Below, piece after piece: positions 1,702 through 61,029 of a stretch of 64,000 bases of DNA. The stretch comes from Ahaetulla prasina (taxonomy: Eukaryota; Chordata; Lepidosauria; Squamata; Colubridae): positions 8,240,314-8,304,313 of the forward strand of contig NC_080548.1 of NCBI RefSeq assembly GCF_028640845.1, given 5' to 3'. Below the pieces are notes generated by a model that saw only the letters and a list, made by a program, of their open reading frames with translations, made no database searches and was not told the origin of the DNA. The translations under genes and the position numbers were made by a program. The stretch's first letter is position 1. The number at the start of each line of letters is the position of its first letter.

Positions 1702-2610
1702 ATGACCGGCTACACGCCACCCACTCCGTTTGACCCTGCCCAGGAAACATGGGGAATATATATGACCCGTTTCGAAAGTTTCCTGGAGGCAAACGAGTTA
1801 CAGGGAGTCTCCGACAACCGCAAACGGGCTTACTTCATAAGCCACTGTGGGTCCGCAGTCATCGCCGTCGCAGAAGCCCTGGCGGAGCCAACACCGCTAC
1901 ACTCCGTGTCGTGGCAGACCCTTCAGACCCTCCTGAAGAATCACGCACCGCCCCGTCCAAATACGCTCGAGGGTACGAGTTTGGGGAGGCAAGGCAACAA
2001 GAAGGCGAGTCTATCAGCGACTACATGGCAGCCCTGAGACAAGCCTCCAAGCATTGCGAGTACCGCGATCTGGACGAAGAGCTGCTGGAACAACTTATAC
2101 GGGGGGTCAGAGACATCCGTTTGAGGAGACGGTTGCTAGCCAAGAGCAACCTGACATTGGCAAACGCTCTGGACGAAGCCAGAGCCCATGAGATGTCCAA
2201 CCATGCAGCAGACACCTTGCAAAAGCGACTCACGCCGATGGCGGGCGCAAAGCCGAGCACAGTCCACCACGAAGAAACCTATCGTGAGTCAACCAGCGAA
2301 GAGGAGGAAGAAGTCCACTACACCGGAAAATCGACAAGGAAGACCCGGAGGAATGCGGAAGCTGTGGGGCGACATCAGCGCCAAAGATGTAAGTTCAGGG
2401 ACGCCATTTGCCGGCGGTGTGAGAGAAAGGGGCACCTGGCCCAAGTCTGCCGAGCACCCCAACCTTCCCGCCGAAAATTCAAATCGGCCAATCAGAGCGG
2501 CTCTGAGTCAGAGATGCAAACCCCACATTCCCGCCGAAATTTCAAACCAGCCAATCAGAGCGCGAGATCAGCAAGGCGACCCGCGACACAGGAAAGAAAG
2601 AGCGAAGTCA
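1702..2610 (+). pseudogene. gag of element A, frameshifted
   Basis: The first ATG after the primer site is at 1702. The reading frame runs about 265 nt, then continues in another frame from about 1965, so at least one frameshift breaks the gene. The second part encodes a helical capsid-like segment (QQEGESISDYMAALRQ region, near 2000-2040) followed by a charged linker. One zinc knuckle of the form C-x2-C-x4-H-x4-C (CRRCERKGHLAQVC, near 2415-2455) is intact and would bind genomic RNA. The region after the knuckle contains a tandemly repeated segment with CGCCGAAATTTCAAA-like units at about 2465-2560. Confidence 0.85.
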
Positions 2611-2616
2611 AACCGA

Positions 2617-2960
2617 ATGACTGTTACCATAGACCACGCAACTACCCGCATCGAAGAAAAGATCTTCACTAACCCAACAATTGAAGGCGTACCGTGCCGG
2701 CTGGAAGTAGACACAGGATCCGCCATCACAATCATGTCCTGGGACACTTTTGTGAAAGCCTTGCCGACATCGCAAAGCGCAAGCTACAGAAACAACGGCC
2801 CGGGTGCAGGATTACCAGGGCAACCGCATCCCTGTTCGAGGGACAACGACCGTCGAGGTCAAGCACGGAACATACGAAAAGACCCTGCCCATCACGTTAG
2901 TCGAGGAACCTTGCCAAGTTTGCTGGGGCTAGACTGGTTCCGGGCGTTGGGAATGGGGTG
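2617..2960 (+). pseudogene. Aspartic protease of element A, frameshifted
   Basis: The retropepsin active site is visible as EVDTGSAITIMSW near 2703-2740, in frame with 2617-2780. After the active-site loop the homologous reading moves to other frames. The C-terminal LGLDWF motif near 2920-2940 is in the original frame. The domain would cut the Gag-Pol polyprotein but cannot be made intact from this sequence. Confidence 0.8.
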
Positions 2961-3059
2961 ACTGGCGTCCACCGAGCGGATGCAACCTGCAAACGCCTAA
3001 TGGAGGAATTCGCAGACGATTCGAGGACCGTTTAGGCAAGTATAAGGGACCCCTATATC

Positions 3060-3830
3060 CTTCAATTTAGACCCCAAATAGCTCCCATTAGGTTAAAGGC
3101 AAGGAGGGTTCCTTTTGCACTCAAACCTAAAATCGACAAAGAGTTAGATAAATTAGTCAGCCAGGGATACTAGTGCCAGTTGACCATGCCAAATGGGAGA
3201 CGCCAATCGTCACCCTATGAAACCAGACGGGTCCATAAGAATTTGTGCCGATTACAAGGCTACCTTGAACAAAGCATTGCAAAAGAGCGCCTACCCAGTT
3301 CCAGTAGTGCAACACTTATTGCACTCACTAGGGCACGGACAAGTTTTCGCCAAATTAGACTTGGCACAAGCTTACCAACAGCTACCCGTAGATGCTAGCA
3401 CAGCGGAAGCCCAGACCATTGTAACGCACCGGGGTGCCTTTAAGTGCACCCGGTTACAGTTTGGGGTGAGTGTGGCCCCGGGGCTATTCCAAAATTTGAT
3501 GGAGCGACTCCTACAAGGGTTACCGGGAGTCGTGCCCTATTTCGATGATGTGTTGGTATCAGGGGAAGATTTAAGAGAACTGGGGAAGCGATTAAGGAAA
3601 GTTTTGGCCATTTTTAGGACGGCAGGATTAAAAGTTAAAGCAAGCAAGTGTCAGATAGGGGTCGAATCTGTGAATTTCTGGGTTATAGAATAGACAAAAA
3701 GGATTCACCCCACTGAGAGCAAAGTCAAGGCGATAAAGAGAGCCCCAGCACCCAAAAACAAGACAGAACTCCAGGCTTTCCTGGGTCTGGTAAACTTTAC
3801 GCCGTGTTTTTAAAAGACAAGGCAACCGTT
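3060..3830 (+). pseudogene. Reverse transcriptase of element A, frameshifted
   Basis: The open stretch 3193-3693 (166 codons) contains the RT palm: AKLDLAQAYQQLPV carries the first catalytic Asp and YFDDVLVSG the Y-x-D-D box, both intact. The fingers lie upstream of about 3190 in another frame; one C appears lost in a CCCC run near 3212. The thumb downstream of 3693 is broken by further indels, and part of the connection domain near 3795 is missing. The Y-F-D-D box is common in Ty3/gypsy elements. Most breaks are single-base changes in homopolymers. Confidence 0.85.
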
Positions 3831-3959
3831 GCTGAACCGCTGCATAAATTGCTTGGAAAAACACAGTTTGGTCGTGGGGAAGTCAGAGAATAGGGCATTT
3901 GAGGCAGTAAAAGTTTGCTATCAAGCGATAGCCTGTTAATACAATACAACAACAGGCTG

Positions 3960-4340
3960 CCGTTAGTATTGGTTTGTGATCGTCCCCTATGGAGTAGGAG
4001 CTGTACTTAGCCACAGACTCCCAAACGGCACAGAAGCCCCTATAGCGTTCTACTCACGAACGATGTCCCGGCTGAGAGAAATTACAGCCAGCTAGATAGG
4101 GAGGCTCTAATAGTGTCAGGGTGAAAAATTTCACGAATACGTTTTGGGAGACTTTGACATTATCACTGACCACAGACCACTATTGGGCTTACTGGCTGGC
4201 GACCGCCCAACGCCAGTGGCACTATCACCCGCTGACCAGATGGACTATCTTTTGGCCGCCTACTCTACAAACTACAGCATCGACCGGAAAAGAGCTGGGG
4301 CATGCGGACGCACTGAGCAGATGCCCATTACCCGGGAAAT
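3960..4340 (+). pseudogene. RNase H of element A, frameshifted
   Basis: Fragments of a gypsy-type RNase H are spread over frames. The start near 3965 reads LVCD followed by a frame change. FDIITDHRPLLGLL at about 4151-4192 carries a late catalytic Asp, and GHADALSR-like sequence lies at about 4297-4322. Gaps and shifts mean no single frame covers the domain. Confidence 0.75.
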
Positions 4341-4559
4341 CGAGGACCCTACTCCGGCACCCCGTTCTACTAATTGACTCTTGGGACTCTGGGCCAGTCA
4401 CATCGCAGGAAGTGGCTCGGGCCTCCTACCGGACGTTGTCTTAAGAACTGTAATCGGTTGGGTTCAAAGGGATGGCCGCTACCGGGCGACCGTTTAGAGA
4501 ATTTGTAAAGAAAAGAGGGGAATTGTCTGTGCAAGGGGGGTGCCTGCTCTGGGGGGATA

Positions 4560-5493
4560 GGGTGGTAGTTCCAGAGAAGGTGAGGAAAAAAGTCCTGGAA
4601 CTACTGCATGAGGGTCACCCAGGAATTGTAAGGATGAAGGGCTAGCCAGGAGCTATGTCTGGTGGCCCCTAATGGACAGGAAATCGGTGACAGGGTTGGC
4701 CGATGCCAGGTATGTCAGGAATCCAGACCACTACCACCCACGGCCCCAGTGTTGGAGTGGGAGAAACCCCAAGGCCCTTGGTCCCGCATACACATTGATT
4801 TTGCCGCCCTTCCACGGCCAAACATTTCTAATTGTGGTGGATGCATTCTCCAAATGGCTGGAGATCATCCTAATGAAATCCACAACCGCGGGAGCTGTCA
4901 TCTCAGCACTAAAACACCTTTTCGCCACGCACGGGCTACCGGACACCCTCGTGTCCGATAACGGCCCACAGTTCACTGCAGCATTATTTGAAGGGTACCT
5001 GGCTGAAGAGGGCATCCGACATGCCCTCTCAGCGCCGTTCCACCCTGCGCTGAACGGCCCTGCTGAACGCTTTGTTCGAGTGCAAAGAAGCGCTATCACG
5101 AAGCAGCCCGGAGACTGGCAGGCACAAATCGACGCATTCCTAACCGTCCAACACAGGACCCCCTGTGTGGCCACCGGCCGCAGCCCAGCCGAGCTATTAA
5201 TGGGGCGGAAGCTAAGGTGCCCGCTAGACCGGCTACACCCGAACTACGTGCAGGACGGGTTCAAAACAAAACCAGATAGACTCCGGGAATTAAACATAGG
5301 AGACTCAGTGTGGGCCCATAATTATAGCGACGGCCCAAACTGGAAGAGGGGGATAGTCATAGACAAAACGGGCCCCAAATCGTATCTAGTGGAAATAGAC
5401 GATGGCAGAGTTTGGAGGCGCCACATAGATCAATTAAGAAACAGATTGAGCGATAAGGCAGAATTAGGCGAGACAGCCCTGACTATGATTTAA
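4560..5493 (+). pseudogene. Integrase of element A, catalytic core open
   Basis: An HHCC zinc region is spread over two frames at 4600-4720 (LLHEGHPG and CQVCQESRP). From 4672 an open frame of 273 codons covers the rest. The DDE core is intact: VVDAFSKW (first Asp), VSDNGPQF (second Asp) and NGPAERF (Glu). Near its end lies a GPKSYLVEI block like the GPY/F module. This is the best preserved gene of element A. The frame ends at a TAA at 5491-5493, just after the homologous reading has shifted frame. Confidence 0.9.
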
Positions 5494-6004: not shown

Positions 6005-6871
<867 letters not shown>

Positions 6872-39572: not shown

Positions 39573-40483
39573 ATTTATTTATTTATTTATTTATTTATTA
39601 AACTTTTATACCACCCTTCTCCCGAAGGACTCAGGGCGGTGTACAGCCAAGATAAAAAACAATAAGTATACAAAGTTAAAAATCAATTTAAAATACCTAT
39701 TCAATAGTGGCCGAATTAAAACCGTCAAATTGACCAACCTAAAATACCCCATATAAAATTACAGAAAATTTAAAAATTTAAAATTTAAAATTTAGAAATT
39801 TAAAAAATCTAAAAAATCAGTCCAGTCCCGCTTGGATGAATAAATAAGTTTTTAATTCCCGACGAAAGGTCCGAAGGTCAGATATTTGGCGCAAACCGGG
39901 GGGAAGGTCGTTCCAGAGAGTAGGAGCTCCAACAGAGAAGGCCCTTCCCCTGGGGGCCGCCAGCCGGCATTGCTTGGCGGACGGCACCCTGAGAAGACCC
40001 TCTCTGTGAGAGCGTACGGGTCGATGGGAGGCATAAGGTAACAGCAGGCGGTCCCGTAAGTACCCGGGCCCTAAGCCATGGAGCGCTTTAAAGGTGGTAA
40101 CCAGAACCTTGAAGCGCACCCGAAAGACCACAGGTAGCCAGTGCAGACTGCGCAGGAGTGGTGTTACCCGGGAGCAACGTGGTGCTCCCTCAATCACCCG
40201 CGCAGCTGCATTCTGGACTAGCTGAAGTCTCCGGGTGCACCTCAGGGGTAGCCCCATGTAGAGAGCATTGCAATAATCCAGGCGAGAAGTGACGAGAGCA
40301 TGAGTGACCGTGCATAAGGCATCCCGGTCCAGAAAGGGGCGCAACTGGCGAACCAGGCGAACCTGGTAAAAAGCTCTCCTGGAGACGGCCGCCACATGGT
40401 CTTCAAACGACAGCCGTCCATCCAGGAGAACGCCCAAGTTGCGCACCCCTTCCGTCGGGGCCAATGACTCACCCCCAACATCC
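39573..40483 (-). mobile_element. L2-like LINE (copy D) inserted in element B
   Basis: The tail (ATTT)n lies at 39573-39600, followed by the CCACCCTTCTCCCGAAGGAC hairpin. The RT C-terminal end is open on the minus strand from about 40480 to 39817. The conserved blocks RNLGVLLDGRLSFEDH, LDYCNALYMGLP and LHWLPVVFRVRFKVLVTTFK are intact. The insertion separates the RNase H end (DALSRKPQF) from the integrase of element B; the ORF reading through the joint is a chance fusion. Confidence 0.92.
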
Positions 40484-40510
40484 TCCCAGCGGCTGTCAAA
40501 TTGAGGTTTT

Positions 40511-41070
40511 CTAGAGAGCGCATCCGCCAGCATGTTTTTTTCCTGCCAGTATGTACTTCAGCTCAAATTTGAAGTGCCTGAAGTATTGAGCCCAGCAGAC
40601 TTGTTTGGGGAACAATTTCCTGGGGGTCTTTAGGGCCTCTAGGTTTTTGTGGTCAGTCCAGACCTCAAAAAGTACTTTTCCACCCTCCAGGAAGTGTCCC
40701 CAGGAGAGCAATGCCCATCGAACAGCATACCCTCTTTTTCCCAGATAGCCCATCATCTCTCTGGGTCATTGACTTTTTTGGACACATAAGCGCATGGCAG
40801 CAATTGACCCTTGGAGTCCCTCTGTAGGAGCACGGTGGCAACGGCCACATCACTGGCATTGGCTTGGATGATGAACTGCCGCTCCAGGACTGGATGCTGC
40901 AAGATCGACTCTTTTGCGAAAAGTCCCTTTAGGTCCTCAAATGCCCTTTGGCACTCCATAGTCCAGGCAATAGGCTGCAACAGCATTGGCTTCACTGTTG
41001 GGGACCCCATTTTCAACAGTTCAGTTAGGGGTAGAGCCACCTCAGCGAACACTGGAATGAACTGCCTATA
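40511..41070 (-). pseudogene. RNase H of element B
   Basis: Two overlapping minus frames: 41052-40753 with AFEDLKGLFAKESIL, then IIQANASDVAV, and 40756-40511 with VWTDHKNLEAL, ending at DALSRKPQF-like sequence. The usual first catalytic Asp (Q-x-D-A-S) reads Asn here, which would stop activity. Confidence 0.85.
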
Positions 41071-41162
41071 GAAGTTGGCAAAGCCCAGGAAGCTTTGAAG
41101 CTGTCTTCAGGTGTGTGGGGGTTGCCAGTCTAAAATGGCCCGAACTTTGCCAGGATCCATTT

Positions 41163-41989
41163 CTATGCCTTCATTGAAATTCGGTAGCCTAAGTAGTCCA
41201 GCGAAGTTTTGTGAAACTCACACTTTGACAGCTTTGCGTAGAGTTTGGCAGTGAGCAGTTTCTTCAGCCCTTGTCGGATGAGTTTTACGTGTTCTTCCAA
41301 CGTTTCGCTGAATATAAGAATGTCAGCCAAGTAGACCACAACCCCCTTGTATAGATGATCATGCAGAATCTCGTTAATGAACTGCATCACCTTGAACTGG
41401 AAGCAGCCAAGCAGGCAGTTGAATGCAGTCTTCCACTCATCCCCCTCCCTAATCCTTATGAGGTAGTAGGCTTCTCGTAAATCCAGCTTGGTGAACACCT
41501 TGCCTCTCGACAGGTGGTTGAGCATGTCCTTCATAAGGGGGAGGGGGAGGTGTTCTCCATACATACAGCATTGATTCCATGAAAATCTGCACAGAGTCTC
41601 ATCCCACCGTCCTTTTTTTCTTTGAAAAGCACCAGGGCTGCTACTTTGGACTTGGCAGGCTCTATGAACCCCCATGCCAGATTTGCATCTATGTACTTTC
41701 TCAACTTCCCCATCTCGGCTGGTGTCATTGAGTACATTTTCAGCTTGGGTAGTTTCACCCCCGGCTCGAATTCTATCACACCGTTAGTTGGGCAATGGGG
41801 TGGGGAGAAGTTGCAGTCTTCCTCACTGAACCCCCCCCCCCCAAGTCCTGGTATTCCTTTGCCATTTGCTGGCTGCCAGGTGGGACATCCTGGGCTAGGG
41901 CAGCTGGCTCTGGAGGGTTTTGTCCTTTTGGGGTCATGATCTCTGGGGTGGGGTATCCACACCTCACTGGTGGCAATGGGCCAGTCCAA
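41163..41989 (-). pseudogene. Reverse transcriptase of element B, dead
   Basis: The minus strand encodes MRLCADFHGINAV, then TKLDLREAYYLIRI with the first catalytic Asp, then VVYLADILIFSETLEEH. The expected Y-L-D-D box reads Y-L-A-D, and about a dozen residues before it (the G-LTNAP-FQ region) are missing. Frames change near 41530-41590. Confidence 0.88.
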
Positions 41990-42370
41990 TGACTATCTTT
42001 CTGTGGGTGCCATCCCAGGAAATTGTGGGTCCCCATTTGTCGACCCAGGAGAGACCTAGGATTACAGGGTCTGTCATTTTGGGGGCGACTATGAACTGGA
42101 GGAGCTCTTTGTGGCACCTCAGTTCTAATCTGACGAGCTCCATGAGTCGGGTGGCCGGGGCCCTGCCAATTAGTGAGCCATCCACTTGTTCAAAGTTGAT
42201 GGGCTGGTGTAGGGGATGCGTGCATATGCCTAGTTGCTCGACTATGTGGGGGCTTCACGTGCAGCCAGTGTCTATGACTGCCTCCACTTCCCCATGGGTC
42301 TCTGTCTCTGGGGCCATTAGGGTAATCTTAAGGCCAAAGGGACGGACAGCTCCACTCACCATTGGGTTGT
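41960..42370 (-). pseudogene. Protease of element B
   Basis: VEAVIDTGCT near 42285-42255 carries the D-T-G active site. The following frame (42185-41964) has LILGLSWVD-type sequence (VILGLSWVDKWGP), the conserved C-terminal end of retropepsins. A stop separates them just after the active site. Confidence 0.8.
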
Positions 42371-42429
42371 CTTTGCCACTGATTTCCCCTGGAGATGGGG
42401 GGAGATTCTTTGGCTGGGCTCTTTTCTGA

Positions 42430-44060
42430 TTCTGCGGGTTAAACAGGGCTCTCTGTTGTTGGCTTAGTGCTCTGTCCCCTGTCCAGCGGCTTCCGTGGGG
42501 TTCTCTTTGGTCCAGCCCATGCAAGGGGTTTCTCTTGGGGCATGGGTGCTGGCGCCAAGCATTTAGATGCCCCATGGACTTGTTGACCACACCAATAGCA
42601 CTTGATGGTCCCAGGTTTCGCAGGCAGTGGCTCCTTGGGCGTCTTTGGCAGCATGTGGCTGCTGAGGGGCCGTTTGGCCGGTTTCTCCACAATCGGCTTT
42701 TTTGGGGGGGTTGAGGTCCAAATTCAGCAGTACCGCGTTCTTGTACCATGCCTGTATTTGGTTTGGAGTCCCTCTTATGCTGCAGGCCTGCCGCAAGTCT
42801 GGATCCAATGCGTTTTTGAAAGTGTGGACCACCAGTCTCTCTGGCCAGTCTCTTAGCTTCCCAGTGAGTCTCCAAAATTCCCACACTAGCTCCTTAGCAG
42901 GCCTTCCAGCCTGCTTTAGCATGGTGATTTTGGACTCAGCTTCCTCTTGCTGGGTGATGTTGCTGAACCTCACTCTCATCAGCTGGAGGAACTCATCTGC
43001 ATTGTCTAGCTCTGGTGCCCCTTCATCGTGGAGTTTGGCTATCCACTTGGATGCCTCCCCCTCGTTCACGGCCTCTGTAATGGCTGAAATCAACTCCCAG
43101 TCAGAGGGGTACTGATTCCCATATTGATTGATGTGGGCACAGACACGGTTCAGGAAATACAACAGCTTCCCTGGGGTCCCATTGAAAGTCGCTTGGAAAG
43201 TGGGGGTGCCACAGCGGGCGCAGGCTGCTGGCTAGATCTTTGCTGTGGGAATTGCATCTGCGGCAGCATTCACTGGCACTACACCCATCCCTGGCTTGGG
43301 TAGTAAGACCACCCGGGAGGAATCTGGCTCACCAGTGGGAATCCCATTCTGTGCGATGGTTGTGGGCTTGGTAGGGTTCCATCCCCGGGTGGCTGGATGG
43401 GGACTCCAGAGCCTGCTTGGCTGGCCGGGAGGGCAGTCATCCCGGAGTGGTGGGGATCCACTGTTAGGCTGGCACACTGCATCAGGCTGGGTGTCGAATG
43501 ACTTGGAACTGAGTGGTAATGGGTGGCCATTCTGGTCTCTTGTGTTGCGGGCCCTTGTCTTGGGAAATTGAATGTCGGCTGTGCCAGAGTCCATCTTGTT
43601 GAACCAAAGTGCTACGGTGTCCCACTTACTCTGAGGCAGCTTAACTGCTCTGGAAGGCCATCCAGGGATTGGCTGTGCGATGGTGGAGGGAGTCCCCATT
43701 CTTTGGAACACTAGCAGCATGGTGATTGTGGCAATTCCCATTGTGGCTCCCACATCGCTCCTTGAATCAGGGTGTCCCCGCTGGCCTCACCCAGCGCAGC
43801 CAGGTCCTGCCACAAGCTCCACTTTGGTGGATGCTCTTTAGGTCGGGCATTCATCTGGTGGGCAGCGTTAGTGGCCTTTATTATTTCTTCCATCTCATGG
43901 GAGGGAGAGAAGAGGGTCCCAGTAACAGTTGCTGAGCCCGTGCCTGTTGCTCCCTCCATAGGTTTCTTCTCCTCCTCCATCTTTCCTGAGTCTTCACATT
44001 GCCCAGGATCAGGTCAGCGCTTGGGGCTCAGGACCCCAAACAGCTCCTCAAGGTTCAAGG
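42430..44060 (-). pseudogene. gag of element B
   Basis: The capsid-like part at 43162-42563 is open for nearly 200 codons and includes WIAKLHDEGAPELDN, FKNALDPDLRQACSIRGTP and IQAWYKNAVLLNLDLN; this pattern occurs in sushi-ichi Gag and in domesticated RTL/PEG10 proteins. A zinc knuckle CYWCGQQVHGASKC at about 42600-42559 has the C-x2-C-x4-H-x4-C form. N-terminal parts are in other frames up to about 43980, with at least two frameshifts. Confidence 0.85.
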
Positions 44061-45864: not shown

Positions 45865-47196
45865 TCAGGCTAGTCCTGCTCTTCGAAACAGCAACGTCTT
45901 CAGCTCGCGGCGGAAGGACTTGAGATCGGGGAGTTGACGAAGCCCCAGAGGGAGCTCGTTCCAGAGGGTAGGGGCCCCCACAGAGAAGGCCCTCCCCCTA
46001 GAGGTCGCCAGCCGACATTGTTTAGCTGACGGTATCCGGAGGAGTCCCTCTCTGTGAGAGCGCACTGGTCGGTGAGAGGCTAATGGTGGCAGTAGGCGGT
46101 CCCGTAAATATCCCGGCCCTAGGCCATGGAGCGTTTTAAAGGTGATGACAAGTACCTTAAAGTGAACCCGGAAGACCACTGGGAGCCAGTGCAGATTACG
46201 CAGGAGGGGTGTTACATGGGAGCCAAAAGGTGCTCCCTCTATCACCCGCGCAGCCGCATTCTGGACCAGTTGGAGTCTCCGGGCACACTTCAAGGGGAGC
46301 CCCATGTAGAGAGCATTACAGTAGTCCAGGCGGGATGTAACAAGGGCATGAGCGACCGTGCATAAGGAAGCCCGATCCAGAAAGGGGCGTAACTGGCGTA
46401 TCAGGCGAACCTGATGAAAGGCTCCCCTGGTGACAGCTATCGTATGATCTTCTAAAGACAGCCGTGCATCCAGGAGGACGCCCAGATTACGAGCCCTTTC
46501 CGTGGGGGCCAATAGTTCGCCCCCAATGGTCAGTGATGGAATTAGCTGACTGTACCGGGCCGCCGGCATCCACAGCCACTCGGTCTTGGTGGGATTGAGT
46601 CTGAGTCTGTTCCTCCCCATCCAGACCCGTACGGCCTCCAGGCACTGGGACATCACTTCAACAGCCTCGTTGGGGTGGTTAGGGGTGGAAATATAGAGCT
46701 GAGTATCATCAGCGATAGATGACAACTCACCCCAAGACCACGGATGATCTCACCCAGCGGCTTCATATAGATGTTGAACAGAAGAGGCGAGAGAACCGAC
46801 CCTTGCGGCACCCCACATAAGAGGCGCCTTGGGGTCGATCTCTGTCCCCCCGTCAACACCGTCTGCGACCGGTCGGAGAGGTAGGAGGAGAACCACCGAT
46901 GAACAGTGCCACTCACTGCAAGTCCTCGAGTCGGCGCAGCAGGATACCATGATCGATGGTATCAAAAGCCGCTGAGAGATCTAATAGGACCAAGACAGAG
47001 GAACAACCTCTGTCCCGAGCCCTCAAGAGATCATCAACCAGCGCGACCAAGGCTGTTTCCGTGCTGTGACCAGGCCGGAAACCGGACTGGAATGGATCAA
47101 GATAGACAGTTTCATCCAGGTACTGGGGCAACTGTCGTGCAACCACACTCGACAACCTTTGCCAAAAGCGAAGGTTGGAGACCGGACGATAATTTG
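45865..47196 (-). pseudogene. LINE copy A: RT palm, thumb and C-terminal domain
   Basis: Three minus frames in order: 47155-46913 ([19 protein letters not shown] and [15 protein letters not shown], first catalytic Asp), 46916-46653 (CGVPQGSVLSPLLFNIYMK), and 46725-45865 (IADDTQLYISTP, then the 240-residue C-terminal region ending FRRELKTLLFRRAGLA). The active-site Tyr of YADD reads Ile at a frame change, so the RT is broken. Confidence 0.88.
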
Positions 47197-48378
47197 CTAA
47201 ACTAGCTGGGTCAAGGAAGGCTTCTTGAGGAGGGCCTCACCACCGCCTCTTTCAAGGCGGCAGGAAAACACCTCCATCAAAGAAGCGCTCACGATTTTCT
47301 GAGTTAGCCTCGTGTCACCTCCGGTGGCCAATACCAACCAGGAGGGACACGGGTCCAATAAACATGTGGTCGCATTCAATCTCCCCATTAACCTGTCCAT
47401 GTCCTCAGGGATCACAGGATCAAACTCATCCCAGATAATAACATCAAGACCTGCCTCCCTCACCCCGTCCGGATCCACCCAGTCTGTGTCCAACCCTTCC
47501 CGAATCTGAGCGATTTTATCAAACAGATATTGTCCAAATTCCTCAGCTCGACCCTTTAAGGGATCTTCTACCGCTCCCTGATGGAGGAGCGAGCGGGTCA
47601 CCCTAAACAGGGCGGCTGGGCGATTATCTGCTGATGCAATGAGGTTGGAAAAATACTCCCGTTTTGCCAGCCTCATCGCCACAAGATAGGTCTGAATTTG
47701 AGACCTAACTAGTGTCCGGTCAGATTCGGATCGGCTGGCCCTCCAGATACTCTCTAGGCGTCTTTTCCGGCGCTTCATCTCCCTCAGCCCCTCGGAGTAC
47801 CAAGGGGCTAAACGAGATCGGCACCGGGTCAGAGGCCGCAAAGGCACAACTCGATCTAGAGCGCCAGCCGCCGCCCGATCCCAGGCGGCAACCAGAGCTC
47901 CAGCCGAGTTGTGGGCCAAATCCTCAGGGAATAGCCCAAGCTCCGTCTGGGACCTTTCAGGGTCCATCAGGCGCCTGGGGCGGGACCAGCGAGTCGGTCC
48001 CGTCCCCCGGCGGCGGGGATCGGCGGTTCGAAAGTCTAGCTGAAGGAGCGAATGATCTGACCATGACAAGGGTCTAATAACTAACTCCCCTAATTCCAGA
48101 TCATTCAACCACTGTCCAGAGACAAAAATCAAATCCAGAGTGTTTCCCCCGATGTGAGTGGGGTCGTTCACTAATTGGGTCAGGTTCAAGGCTGTCATGG
48201 AAGCCATGAACTCCCGAGCTGATGTGGATGCTATCCCCACCGACGGCAAATTGAAATCCCCCATGACCATAAGCCTGGGGATCTCCATTGCCGTCCCAGC
48301 GACCACATCCAACAGCTCAGGCAGGGAATCTGTCACGTAGCAAGGAGCTAGGTACGTGATCAGTACACCCACCTGCAC
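47197..48378 (-). pseudogene. LINE copy A: endonuclease end and RT start
   Basis: A 393-codon open frame. RLMVMGDFNLPSVG and DPTHIGGNTLDLIF, then LSWSDHSLLQLDF are the APE endonuclease blocks with the catalytic GDFN and SDH residues. The linker follows, then RT block 0/1 (GRLNATTCLLDPCPSWL). The frame ends near [11 protein letters not shown], where a frameshift interrupts the NYRPVS block. Confidence 0.88.
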
Positions 48379-51732: not shown

Positions 51733-52454
51733 TTAACATTTAAAATTCAATTTAAGCCAGCCCCGCACGATAAAAAGGTGTGTCTTCAGTTCGCGGCGGA
51801 AAGTCCGAAGGTCAGGTATTTGGCGTAAACCTGGGGGAAGCTCGTTCCAGAGTGTGGGAGCCCCCACAGAGAAGGCCCTTCCCCTGGGGGCCGCCAGCCG
51901 ACATTGTTTGGCGGACGGCACCCTGAGAAGTCCCTCTCTGTGAGAGCGTACGGGTCGGTGGGAGGCATAAGGTAACAGCAGGCGGTCCCGTAAGTACCCA
52001 GGCCCTAAGCCATGGAGCGCTTTAAAGGTCGTAACCAACACCTTAAAGTGCACTCGAAAGGCCACAGGTAGCCAGTGCAGTCTGCGCAGGATCGGTGTTA
52101 CATGGGAGCTACGCGTAGCTCCCTCTATCACCCGCGCAGCTGCATTCTGGACTAACTGAAGCCTCCGAGTGCACTTAAGGGGAGCCCCATGTAGAGAGCA
52201 TTACAATAATCCAAGCGAGAGGTAACGAGCGCATGAGTGACTGTGCACAAGGCATCCCGATCAAGGAAGGGGCGCAACTGCCGAACCAGGCGGACCTGGT
52301 GGAAGGCCCTCCTGGAGACGGCCGTCAAATGATCTTCAAACGACAGCCGATCATCCAGGAGGACACCCAAGTTGCGCACCCTATCCTTTGGGGTCAATAA
52401 CTCGCCTCCAACAGTCAACCGCGGCTGCAGTTGACTGAATCGGGATGCCGGCAT
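51733..52454 (-). pseudogene. LINE copy B: C-terminal region
   Basis: Two frames: 52454-52152 (VRNLGVLLDDRLSFEDHL and LDYCNALYMGLP) and 52131-51733 (LHWLPVAFRVHFKVLVTTFK through FRRELKTHLF). Together they equal the last 240 residues of copy A with one frameshift near 52150. Confidence 0.88.
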
Positions 52455-53412
52455 CCACAGCCACTGGGATTAAGGGATTAAGCTTGAGCCTGTTTCTCCC
52501 CATCCAGACCCGTACAGCTTCCAAACACCGGGACAGCACTTCAACAACTTCATTGGGGTGGCCTGGGGTGGAAAAGTACAGCTGGGTGTCATCAGTGTAC
52601 TGTTGGTATCTCACCCCGAAGCCACTGATGATCTCACCCAACGGCTTCATGTAGATGTTGAACAGCAGGGGTGAGAGAATCGACCCTTGCGGGACCCCAC
52701 AAGTGAGGCACCTCGCGGCCGACCTCTGCCCCCCTGTCAACACCGTCTGCGACCAGTCGGAGAGATAGGAGGAGAACCACCGATAAACGGTGCCTCCCAC
52801 TCCCAATCCCCCCAACCGGCGCAGCAAGATACCATGGTCGATGGTATCAAAAGCCGCTGAGAGGTCTAATAGGACCAGGGCAGAGGAGTACCCCCTGTCC
52901 CTGTCCCGCCAGAGATCATCCACCAATGCGACCAAAGCTGTCTCCGTGCTGTATCCGGGTCGAAAGCCGGACTGGAACGGGTCTAGATAGACGGCTTCAT
53001 CCAGGTATTGGGGTAGCTGTCGCGCCACAGCACTCTCTACAACCTTCGCAACGAAGCGAAGGTTGGAGACTGGACGATAATTACCTAAAATAGCTGGGTC
53101 CAGGGAGGGCTTCTTGAGGAGGGGTCTCACCACTGCCTCTTTCAAGGCGGCAGGGAAAACCCCTTCCAGCAAGGAAGCGTTGATAATCCTCTGGAGCCAG
53201 CCTCGTGTCACCTCCTGAGTGGCCAGTACCAGCCAGGAAGGACACGGGTCCAGTAAACATGTCGTGGCATGAAGCCTCCCCAACAACCTGTCCACGTCCT
53301 CGGGAGCCACAGGGTCAAACTCATCCCAAACCGGCTCAACAAGACGTGTCTCCTCTCCCTCGCTTGGATCATCCCAATTTCGGTCCAGACTGTCCCGGAG
53401 CTGAGCGATTAT
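52381..53412 (-). pseudogene. LINE copy B: RT domain, open
   Basis: The open frame extends to 53430, of which the part from 53412 is LINE. RT blocks are in one frame: [61 protein letters not shown] and YQQYTDDTQLYFSTPG. The Y-A-D-D box reads Y-T-D-D. After KLNP, loss of about 10 bp compared with copy A shifts the frame, and the C-terminal region continues in 52454-51733 frames. Confidence 0.88.
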
Positions 53413-53767
53413 TATTATGGGCATTTGCAACTCAAAACAAGATTTTTAGTGAGGATTTTAAAAGCAAAAAATGAAATGAAAGGGAGAACAAAGACTCCCA
53501 AGAGTGAAGAACAGGCTGAAGGTGTTTAAAAACAATTTAAATGGGAATATAAGAAAAATTATGGCTGGCTGCTGAGAATTCTGAAATATTGTTGCATATT
53601 CTGTACTTGTTTCAGCTATTCCTCATTTCTTGTCTTTAAGCACAAACTTAAAATCAGAGGCACACAACCAAAATAAGAAAAGAAAGAAACTAATTGATTG
53701 GGTGAAAAAAAGATGATATACAGATAGAAGATAACATAATGGGGCAAGTTATAAAATCAGAGATTTT

Positions 53768-53774
53768 ATTTTAT

Positions 53775-53823
<49 letters not shown>

Positions 53824-54812
53824 TAAATTTCTATACCACCATTCTCCCAAAGGACTCAGGGCGGTTTACAGCCAAAGTAAAAACAATTAGAACAAAAATT
53901 AAAACCAGATTAAAAGGAAAAGTTAAAGTTGGTTGAAGACTTAAAACCAATAAAAACCCCATTATTAAAACCCCATTAGGCCAGTTCTGCACGATGGAAC
54001 AGAAATGTTTTCAGCTTGCGTCGAAAGGACTGAAGATCAGGGAGTTGGCGGATACCTGATGGTAGCTCGTTCCAGAGGGTTGGTGCCCCCACAGAGAAGG
54101 CCCTCCCCCTGGGCGCCACCAGCCGACATTGACTGGCCGACGGCACCCTAAGGAGACTCTCCCTATGGGAGCGCACTGGTCGATGGGAGGTCGCCAGTAG
54201 GAGCAGGCGGTCCCGTAAGTAACCCGGTCCTATGCCATGGAGCACTTTAAAGGTGGTAACTAACACCTTGAATTGCACCCAAAAGACCACTGGAAGCCAG
54301 TGCAGCCTGCGCAGGAGAGGTGTTATATGGGAGCAACGAGTCACTCCCTCTATCACCCGCGTGGTGAACTGAACCAGTTGGAGCCTTCGGGTGCTCTTCA
54401 AGGGGAGCCCCATGAAGAGAGAATTGCAGTAGTCCAGACGGGAAGTGATGAGGGTGTGAGTGACTGTGCATAAGGAATCCCGGTGTAAGAAGGGACGCAA
54501 CTGGCGTATCAGGCGGACCTGATAAAAAGCTTCTCTGGTGACGGCCATCAAATGCTCTTTCAATGACAGCCGTGCATCCAGAAGGATGCCCAGATTGCGG
54601 ACCTTCTCTGTGGGGGCCAATGATTCGTCCCCCTCAGACAGCGATGGCCTCAGCTGATTATATCGGGACGCCAGCATCCACAGCCACTCGATCTTGGCGG
54701 GGTTGAGTTGGAGCCTGTTTTTCCCCATCCAGACCTGCACGGCCTCCAGACAACGGGACATCACTTCAACGGCTTCACTGGGGTGGTTAGGGGTGGAAAT
54801 GTACAGCTGCAT
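53768..54812 (-). mobile_element. L2-like LINE (copy C), 5'-truncated
   Basis: The tail region holds (GATT)n at 53780-53820. The minus frame 54812-53976 (278 codons) is open: it starts just after the ADD box (QLYISTPNHPSEAV), continues through LDYCNSLFMGLP and HWLPVVFWVQFKVLVTTFK and ends FRRKLKTFLFHRAELA. A short deletion near 54370 removes residues of the VQNAA-R block without shifting frame. Confidence 0.92.
53780..53820. repeat. (GATT)n microsatellite at LINE tail
   Basis: Ten GATT units lie between the LINE tail and the A/T-rich flank. Confidence 0.95.
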
Positions 54813-57599: not shown

Positions 57600-58189
57600 C
57601 TATAAGATGTACTCTGAGAATTGCTAGGGAGGGTCTAACCTTAATATCTTCTTGCCACCAGACATTCCAAGCTCTGCTGTTTGTTTGCCCTCTGGAAAAG
57701 CAGCCCTCCCTCTATGATTCTGAACCGCATTCCACCACAATATATTCGCCAATAAAGCACGGCTGGTGTCCTGGGTGATTTGATATGCTCCTATTTGCAA
57801 TCATGATTCAGCATAAGTCAATAGGTCAGTATGCAAATTACTCAAATCAGTCCTTGTTCTCATTGGTTTACTTTGAAGTTGAGGACACAATCGTATTATC
57901 CCCTTACAGAATAATGGCATAACATTTGAATGTAGCTAGCCTGGAAAGCACATTTAGAAAGGAGGAGGGACACTTAACATCTGAAGGGTTTCCTCCAACA
58001 TGGCCATCTTCATGCGTTAACTCCCTTGTAGGCATGGTCCCGAAGAGCATGTCAAAACCACGGAGCGAAATCTCATCTTAAGCAGCGGTTACAGTCATCA
58101 CCAAAGAGCTGAAAGAACTTGAGTTCCCCAAGTGGCACTCAACACATTGGTGAAAACGATCTTAAGAAAAGCAAGAGAAAGATGAAACA
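57600..58189 (+). promoter_or_regulatory. Upstream region of the HMG-box ORF with short uORFs
   Basis: Between the hAT-like element and the ORF no repeat is recognised. An ATGGCC start at about 58000 opens a 6-codon uORF (ATG...TAA), and an ATG at 58183, 7 bp before the main start, opens a 10-codon uORF that overlaps it out of frame. There is no clear TATA box. Whether the region is transcribed cannot be told. Confidence 0.3.
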
Positions 58190-58633
58190 ATGGCCAAGGG
58201 CAACCGCTGCTTGAAAACATCGGCAAAATCAAAGAGGAGGAGAAAAGGTTTTGGAAAGAGAAGGAAACTACGAGGCCGAAAGCGACGGCCTCTCCCTGCT
58301 TTTTTCCTCTTCATGAAAGACAGACGATCAAAGCTTAAGTGTGACAATCCGAACTGGGACGTAATCCAAATGGCTAAAAGGCTGGGCACCATGTGGCACC
58401 AACAGCCTAATAATGATAAACAAAACTACAAGAGGAAGGCAGCTCAATTGTGGCAATTGTACAGTAGGTCCAAGGGCTGTAGAACGAAAAAGAAGAGGAA
58501 AAAAAGGAGGTTAGGCCGAAGAAGATGCCGAAATCCAAAGAACAGGAAGAGGAAGAGGAAAACTGTGAAGAAGAAAACCAGGAAATGCAAGTGTGATGAA
58601 CTCGAGAGAGTGTTAAAATCCCTCTTCTGCTAA
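58190..58633 (+). CDS. Single-exon, highly basic HMG-box protein (147 aa)
   Basis: The ATG at 58190 has a good context (ACAATGG). The protein has 31 Lys and 28 Arg among 147 residues, only 7 acidic residues, and 7 Cys. Residues 32-93 form one HMG box: PLPAFFLFMKDRRSKL, then NPNWDVIQMAKRLGTMW and DKQNYKRKAAQLWQLY, with Pro34, Phe38, Phe41, Trp69, Lys77 and Tyr80 at hallmark positions. The box looks most like box B of HMGB proteins, especially testis HMGB4 (NPNW-V-Q-AK--G-MW). Basic tails lie on both sides (3-33 and 95-134). Such a layout suggests DNA compaction in the nucleus, for example a sperm chromatin protein; this is inference. No intron is seen. It lies antisense inside the putative CSMD1 intron. 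A processed HMGB-type retrogene is the main alternative, but an intact ORF in so decayed a region argues for use. Confidence 0.7.
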   Translation: MAKGNRCLKTSAKSKRRRKGFGKRRKLRGRKRRPLPAFFLFMKDRRSKLKCDNPNWDVIQMAKRLGTMWHQQPNNDKQNYKRKAAQLWQLYSRSKGCRTKKKRKKRRLGRRRCRNPKNRKRKRKTVKKKTRKCKCDELERVLKSLFC

Positions 58634-61029
58634 GGCTCTGTGTATACTCATCTCCTTGATCAGTGCAGTTAACGCTTGAGTAAAAATAAGTGTCTGTCCC
58701 TAAGTGTGTACACAGCAGTGAAAAATTGTAAGTGCTCAAGATCACCCTAACTGGATGCAGCCCAGAAGAGGTGCTGTATTTACAGTTTCCTAGCTGTTCC
58801 TTTCTTGATATATTAGCTGAGCTCTATGTCATACAATGGGGGGGCTGTACGGTCGGGGGCTTAGTTTGATTTTGTTGCTATCTTCATAGCAATGGTGGTT
58901 ATTGTAGGGAATCCAGAAAAAAGATTATAGCTGGGCAGAAGTAAATTTCCTGATTATGCAAGGATGTAATATTCAGACTACGGTATAACGTTTCATCCTG
59001 AGAGGCAACTTTTACTTTGATTCTAATTCAACACTGCAGGCATTGTGTTCTATTGAACAAGCCATCTTTAACTTCAATGGCAGAATATGGGATACTCCTC
59101 CTTCTGGATACAAATAATAGTTCCAGGGTAACAACTTGTAGAATCCCTGCCATCCTTCAGTCTTCCATTCAGTATTGGGTGGGAAAATGCCAATCTCTCT
59201 CCTACACATGGGGCTAGATGGGTTTGGGGACTCTAGGTGTTTCCTGTTTCTTCTTTGATAGATATTGGAATGTTTTCTGTGTAGTTTTCTTCCTTATTCC
59301 TCAGGCTCAGTATTTTTCAACCTAAGAATGTCAATCTCCCGGAAGATTGGGAGGTCAGTGTTCCCATGGGAAAAATAACAGTAATTTTTCAAAGCTGCTG
59401 CCCAGAAGCACCTACAAAAACTGATGGTGACAATTTGCTCAATAGCCTCTATTTCTTTTATTTTAAAATGAAAATCTGATTTATTAGCAGTAAGAGTAAG
59501 GGAAAATTAGGGGGGCAGAAGGGCTGAAAATTCCCAAGCGCAAAATAACTAAGGTAGCTTAAAGAAGCCCTTAGTGACCACTTGCAACCCAAAAGCAAAA
59601 TTATCACAGAATTTTCTTTAAATTTCTTTAGATTTATTTGAGATAATTTGAGTGCTAAAGCAGAATGTATATGTATTTGTTCAATTGTTTATTACCTTAT
59701 CAATGTGTTAGAAATCTTGGTAATAGTTTCCTGATAAAGGAAGAACATGCAAACATTCTATGTTTTCAATATTTTGTAAACTCCTGTGCTCTTTCCAGAC
59801 TTTGAGAAGTCCATTATGTCTCCTGTAGTGAAGAGTTTGTGCTATGGATGGAGTAGAGTCAGGTCTTCTACAGCCACCTAGAACTGTGGCTTGTTGCCCC
59901 TGATCCTGTTATTTCTTTTGAGTGTATAATGTAACATTAATATGTTAAGTCTGGATGGTACCAAGCAAAGCAAACATTCACAGAACCTTGAACAAAGTCA
60001 TGTCCCTAAATTGCTGGAGCAGCAAAAAAAAAAAAAAAGTCAGTGGAATGATCCGCTCTGAGGATTGGGGAACTGGAGAGAATATTTTGGAATGCCTCTG
60101 CATTGAATAATTCTCTGCCTCCACTTGCATGCATATTTATGATTGAACCTCTGAGTCCAGTAAGTCATAATTTGATGTAAAAGTGGGAATATCAGTTTCA
60201 TGGGAGAACCTGCATTCAATATTACATGAGGTTGATATTCTCATCGCTTCCCCTAAAAGAAGAAAAGAGTTGCACAAGAGAAAGGTCCAGGTCTCTGGCA
60301 GACATAGCACAAGTGGCCACGGAAGTGCAGAGCTCAGTAGACAGACAGGAGAGGGCAGTTCTGCAGCAGTTCTGTAAGGTCAGTTGAAGCCCAGCAGATC
60401 ACTGACTGACTGCTCTTCCTCCACACACACTGCAAGAAAAGGCTGGTGCTAGCAAAAGACGGAAGACGCTACTCTCAGCAGTGACACTAATTAGCCTGAG
60501 TTCAGCCAGCCTCATCAGGAGGCTGGCCAGGAGAAGGAGGCCTTATGACCTTGGCAAATGGTTTATGGACTTTCTTTGGACTGTTGAAATCAGGCTGTAG
60601 GGATGAATCTTTAAGGCTTCAGTGTTATGAAGTTTCAAAGAATCACGAAGACTTTACAATTACAGGGACATTTCTATTCCATTATACTATTCACTTTTTC
60701 TTTTTGAGATAGTTTGATTTTATGATTGTGGAGAGAAGAAAGTTGGGAATATTATGTTGTTGTTGTTGTTTTTAAAGAAAAGAATTGAATTTGTCAAGCT
60801 TCCAATCATACTGAAAGACCAGTGACAAAAAAGAGGAGAACATTTCAAATAAAGTAATCTAGAAGATTGGGAAATGCAATTAATTATCAGTATTCTACAA
60901 AGTAGAATGTAGATTTTTTTTTTCTGAGTTGAAACTACTGAGGATATAATGGAATCATGGAACCAATTATTTTGGAAATCCAGTCACAACCGAATGTGGT
61001 AGAGATGGGAAAAACGAGTTTGATAACAG
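58634..61029. other. No recognised gene; downstream of the HMG-box ORF
   Basis: AGTAAA at 58679-58684, 45 nt after the stop codon, could act as a weak poly(A) signal; the first AATAAA seen is far away at about 60848. An A15-16 run is at about 60026. Short frames such as 60183-60377 have no recognisable domain. The stretch is free of obvious recent transposons, unlike its surroundings. Confidence 0.4.

Follow-up and report, generated by a model that had tools for sequence, protein, structure and literature searches.

The stretch analysed here (the window) comprises 64,000 nucleotides of the snake Ahaetulla prasina (NCBI RefSeq assembly GCF_028640845.1, contig NC_080548.1, positions 8,240,314 to 8,304,313, forward strand) and contains, in its list of open reading frames (ORFs), an intact single frame that runs from ATG to TAA at 58190-58633(+) and encodes a relative of the HMG-box protein HMGB4. 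The product has 147 amino acids and one HMG box (Pfam HMG_box, residues 32-94, E 4e-15, 56.4 bits at a cut-off of 25.4) between two basic arms. Lysine and arginine make up 59 of the 147 residues (40%): 15 of 30 in the N-terminal arm, 15 of 64 in the box and 29 of 53 in the C-terminal arm, which has only three Asp/Glu, so that there is no acidic C-terminal tail. With seven cysteines, a net charge of +52 and a calculated isoelectric point of 11.8, the protein is small, strongly basic and rich in Lys/Arg, as are sperm nuclear basic proteins and transition proteins. The start codon has an A at -3 and a G at +4. In the predicted structure, blocks over residues 41-90 of the box reach predicted local distance difference test (pLDDT) scores of 90-95, while the arms have no confident fold (blocks of 48-64; mean of the whole model 69.1). 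These data agree with an initial annotation of the DNA, made from the letters alone, which had described an intact 147-codon frame with a good start, one HMG box between basic arms, 40% Lys/Arg, seven cysteines and a composition resembling sperm chromatin proteins. ORF length was rejected as proof of a gene: a frame of 147 codons or more turns up in 3 of 500 sequences simulated for the 3-kb region with a first-order Markov model. Length alone is thus weak evidence, and a chance origin is excluded by the homologues described below. No AATAAA is present between the stop codon and position 60500.

A motif scan and tblastn with three CSMD2 proteins detected a single CSMD exon in the window (6607-6719, minus strand, bounded by AG and GT splice sites). 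Its peptide, corresponding to the latter half of the second CUB domain, has a match in all 82 scored proteins: 80 are named CSMD2, one is hypothetical and one (P0124, Sphaerodactylus townsendi) is recorded as CSMD1-like, probably a naming error, as its exon sequence fits the CSMD2 set. Residues 266-302 of Naja CSMD2 correspond to this exon with 100% identity, and residues 196-265 correspond, also with 100% identity, to the adjacent exon about 125 kb away on the minus strand (C10:8371794-8372003). A CSMD2 query of 2669 residues has 23 matches in the genome: 15 are colinear on the minus strand of C10 (88-97% identity), one is on C1 (70%), one on C3 (62%) and six are on C2 (33-44%). Several of the latter lie together in an open frame of 927 amino acids (G000:C2:210930238-210933015), perhaps an intron-poor sushi-repeat gene. 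As consecutive CSMD2 exons lie on both sides of the ORF, both on the minus strand, the ORF is antisense within a CSMD2 intron of about 125 kb. The host gene is CSMD2: the initial annotation had recognised the antisense nesting and the CSMD family, but its assignment to CSMD1 is ruled out by the 80 of 82 matches named CSMD2 and by the colinear C10 exons. According to PMC5036535, the HMGB4 genes of human, mouse and rat each lie inside a CSMD2 intron; the layout, for which the initial annotation knew of no standard vertebrate gene, therefore has a known counterpart, in the sense of a shared host gene.

Relatives were searched in a protein database of predicted frames. With the single sequence as query, 7 of 62 candidates passed E<=1e-3 (best 8e-71), among them proteins of Laticauda, Naja and Phrynocephalus; with a profile, 60 of 7987 scored candidates passed E<=1e-6, including Varanus, turtles (Chelydra, Chelonoidis, Caretta, Gopherus) and numerous birds. 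Two of the bird matches, from Nothoprocta (P0024) and Pseudopipra (P0026), are already named HMGB4; many of the weaker profile matches are of HMGB1/2 type. The orthologues in close relatives that the initial annotation had looked to are thus present. Some entries were labelled snake-type or lizard-type from similarity only. Entries P0004 (Naja naja) and P0006 (Phrynocephalus) stop early or differ at the C-terminal arm, possibly as a result of annotated ends. The snake's own 1.77-Gb genome has one full-length match; no recent parent HMGB copy, which the initial annotation had considered, was found among the best 93 scored candidates, the second best being 40% identical.

A tree was built from 66 columns of box B and 38 rows: the window, 36 rows chosen by hand from the 60 matches and one human HMGB4 row. 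It has no HMGB3 row, some of its HMGB1/2-type labels were assigned by us, and 14 of its 35 inner branches are open. One group (99/96) comprises the 28 rows treated as sauropsid, among which two bear the name HMGB4, and within it the 11 squamate rows form one group (92/89, drawn open); nine HMGB1/2-type rows stand apart. The human row, with its long branch, falls between the two sides, and the branch that separates the nine HMGB1/2-type rows has 84/76. In this tree without HMGB3, the snake frame therefore groups with HMGB4-type rows and away from HMGB1/2, as expected from the HMGB4 likeness and HMGB derivation proposed in the initial annotation. The product lacks the two boxes and acidic tail of canonical HMGB1-3.

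The snake protein also lacks the two-box architecture of HMGB4, as box A is present only as a decayed remnant directly upstream of the ORF, a feature on which the initial annotation was silent. In a Pfam scan of ten relatives, six have two boxes (P0012, P0013, P0016, P0019, P0023 and P0024; turtles and birds, P0016 being unnamed) and four have one (P0026, P0007, P0009 and P0011); the squamate relatives found have box B only. In the alignment, the squamate start methionine sits at the Met/Leu of a motif late in box A (EEMAK/EELAR). Translated in frame, the codons upstream of the snake ATG resemble a decayed box A interrupted by three stops, and the ATG at 58034 that opens this remnant aligns with the start codon of the two-box turtle protein P0013. 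For every one of six references, the 24 codons directly upstream share 7-8 identities with its box A; in an anchored test, with register and length picked by eye after inspection, they gave the best of 31 registers for all six, a score reached by 4-131 of 20000 codon shuffles. When the turtle protein P0012 was searched against the whole genome, its best match was the snake locus (E 3.7e-17), with an alignment that starts 26 codons 5' of the ATG, within box A, and crosses one TGA and one TAA. A gapped, unanchored alignment to box A was clear of codon shuffles for two of five references (25 and 48 of 3000). Since this unanchored test is equivocal, the box A claim is based on the anchored test, the genome search and the alignment. 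P0007 and P0008 have a few in-frame residues before the squamate start methionine; their match to box A exceeds shuffles in P0007 (reached by 7 of 500) but not in P0008 (93 of 500).

Little or no box A is also found in four HMGB4-type passerine proteins (P0026, P0018, P0031, P0035), each with an N-terminal part of 59 residues. Three of these parts match box A partially (0-2 of 500 shuffles) and that of P0026, which has one Pfam box, does not (116 of 500). Judged from these sequences, the passerine loss looks like an event separate from the squamate one.

Table 1. Features of the HMGB4-like locus in window coordinates
Feature	Position	Strand	Basis
One-box HMGB4-like coding sequence, 147 amino acids, TAA stop	58190..58633	+	ORF, Pfam, homologues, genome search
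N-terminal basic arm, residues 1-30, 15/30 Lys/Arg	58190..58279	+	Alignment, composition
HMG box, residues 31-94, equivalent to box B of two-box relatives	58280..58471	+	Pfam, alignment, structure model
C-terminal basic arm, residues 95-147, 29/53 Lys/Arg, 5 Cys	58472..58630	+	Alignment, composition
Start context of current ATG	58184..58193	+	A at -3, G at +4
AGTAAA, 46 nucleotides past stop, perhaps a weak poly(A) signal	58679..58684	+	Function inferred
Decayed in-frame HMG box A remnant	58034..58189	+	Three in-frame stops, gap of ~30 nucleotides, ATG aligned with turtle P0013 start
CSMD2 exon, next one downstream of the ORF-bearing intron	6607..6719	-	Splice sites, protein matches

Four snake-type proteins have a complete box, and the box of the window protein is identical to theirs at 57-60 of 64 positions. 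Pairwise comparison with the first 15 of 29 aligned relatives shows stronger conservation in the box than in the arms for 12 of them (p<0.05; the comparisons are uncorrected and not independent); the three misses (P0002, P0003, P0005) are all snake-type, so that this class scores only two of five. Turtle P0013 is identical to the remnant at 17 of 51 positions (counted from an optimised alignment) and to box B at 35 of 64 (p 0.025). Protein comparisons of this kind are an indirect measure of constraint. In most of the full-length relatives from squamates and turtles, the C-terminal arm has a short alignable tail that ends in cysteine. The Lys/Arg content is 35-41% in snake-type P0001-P0003, 26-29% in turtles P0012 and P0013 and 23-29% in birds P0019, P0023 and P0024; all six two-box relatives measured have 23-29% and net charges of +28 to +40, and human HMGB4 has 25%.

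The CSMD2 location, the two-box relatives in sauropsids and the box A remnant upstream indicate that the frame is an HMGB4 orthologue by descent minus box A. Our preferred reading, to which we give a probability of about two in three, is that this snake orthologue, having lost box A and become very basic, likely serves in the condensation of spermatid chromatin; both its expression site and this function we infer from mammalian HMGB4 and TP4 and from composition. The ancestral sauropsid form would have had two HMG boxes. In squamates the translation start would have moved to the codon of a late box A residue, with the rest of box A decaying upstream and box B being kept, and the linker and tail, which carry several cysteines, would have become strongly rich in Lys/Arg, above all in snakes. 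The protein would be produced in spermatids, where the single box could bend DNA in the minor groove and the two basic arms could neutralise the backbone and bridge duplexes, aiding the transition from histones to protamines, with possible cross-linking by the cysteines. By analogy, the snake protein may thus have a role in the DNA packing of developing sperm; this role appears the most likely one because basic arms have been added to one DNA-binding box, and because of mammalian HMGB4 and TP4.

Several points weigh against this reading. On the side of box A, seven of eight squamate N-terminal parts do not match it clearly beyond shuffles (34-461 of 500), the gapped unanchored test is not clear for three of five references (495, 520 and 503 of 3000), and the anchored test carries its choice by eye. 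The turtle entries P0014 (Caretta) and P0017 (Gopherus) also have no box A, and P0014 starts at the same internal methionine as the squamates, which may reflect annotation or a real alternative start. Human HMGB4 is tied to the sauropsid rows only modestly (84/76, long branch), and broken copies in other species are invisible because the database shows only predicted frames. Lizard-type proteins have only 28-34% Lys/Arg, close to turtle values; it is therefore chiefly in snakes that basicness becomes extreme, whereas all squamate proteins found share the one-box layout. Squamates may, in addition, rely on protamines. Male mice with an Hmgb4 knockout are fertile and have normal litters (PMC6735960).

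The main rival to a packing role is a regulatory one, in which the HMGB4 orthologue regulates chromatin in spermatocytes (through silencing or transcription) or in the brain, and the arms only boost non-specific binding. According to PMC5036535, mammalian HMGB4 influences both histone marks and transcription, and neural cells contain it as well. The well-preserved box would fit such a regulator too, but the net charge of +52 and the 40% Lys/Arg exceed the values of the six two-box relatives, and the Lys/Arg content also exceeds that of human HMGB4, and we regard this explanation as unlikely, if the most serious of the alternatives. That the frame is a dispensable relic of HMGB4, drifting since the loss of box A and open by chance in Ahaetulla prasina, is improbable: the lost box, the variable arm lengths, the fertile mouse knockout (PMC6735960) and the Markov sequences of equal ORF length are all compatible with it, but the same layout is open in several snake and lizard proteins, the box is highly identical among snake-type proteins and more conserved than the arms in most comparisons, though not in most snake-type ones, and box B has kept more identity to P0013 than the remnant has.

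A retrocopy of HMGB1, HMGB2 or HMGB3 that arose in one lineage and landed by chance in a CSMD intron could equally be a single-exon frame akin to HMGB box B. The box sides with turtle and bird HMGB4-type proteins and away from HMGB1/2-type rows, the genome holds no close parent among the candidates scored, and relatives of the same layout occur across squamates, all of which argues against a retrocopy and makes it extremely improbable; a recent HMGB1/2 copy is rejected on the tree grouping together with this parent search.

If orthology and packing role are both true, HMGB4 would be an amniote gene rather than a mammal-specific one, and its loss of a domain could be dated, the remnant being still readable next to it; the locus would then illustrate cleanly how an architectural chromatin protein becomes a candidate for sperm packing, and would give studies of squamate sperm chromatin assembly a concrete starting point. 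More tentatively, and with somewhat less than even odds, squamates may have converted a two-box HMGB chromatin factor into a novel type of sperm nuclear basic protein among vertebrates, in which a single DNA-bending box stands between arms like those of protamines and which arose when the start codon moved into box A; the HMG-box sperm proteins of insects would be a parallel, and the passerine loss would suggest repeated selection for one box. The open-licence literature searched holds no report that we found of HMGB4 in squamates or as a retrogene, and a chicken search there, by title or start of abstract, returned none on avian HMGB4; nothing further came from the papers listed there for TP4 and for reptile sperm proteins.

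Elsewhere in the window, broken retroelement frames occupy 1749-5493, 39817-43741, 45865-48288 and 52152-54812, with reverse transcriptase and integrase domains at 3.2-5.5 kb and reverse transcriptase at 41.2-41.7 and 52.4-53.4 kb; related frames are repeated among these stretches and have a common motif like RLQLVQNAAARVIEG.

Among known systems, Drosophila supplies examples of HMG-box sperm nuclear basic proteins. These insect proteins are of independent origin and have functional evidence, whereas the role of the snake protein is a proposed one. PMC13148410 includes HMG-box proteins among the sperm nuclear basic proteins. Drosophila HMG-D likewise has a single box (PDB 8r1x, 1hma) but carries an acidic regulatory tail (PMC4207994), where the snake protein has basic tails. 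The turtle and bird HMGB4-type proteins (P0012, P0013, P0019, P0023, P0024; P0016) have the nearest box B outside squamates and an alignable linker, but two Pfam HMG boxes. Rat transition protein 4 (TP4, HMGB4L1), believed to be exclusive to the nuclei of elongating spermatids (PMC5036535), is likewise derived from HMGB4, but is an X-linked derivative of rat HMGB4, while the snake gene is at the CSMD2 locus and has one box. Mammalian HMGB4 itself, called mammal-specific in PMC5036535 and present in spermatids, shares with the snake protein a location in a CSMD2 intron and the lack of an acidic tail; it has two boxes, in contrast to the one box, the long Lys/Arg-rich arms and the seven cysteines of the snake protein.
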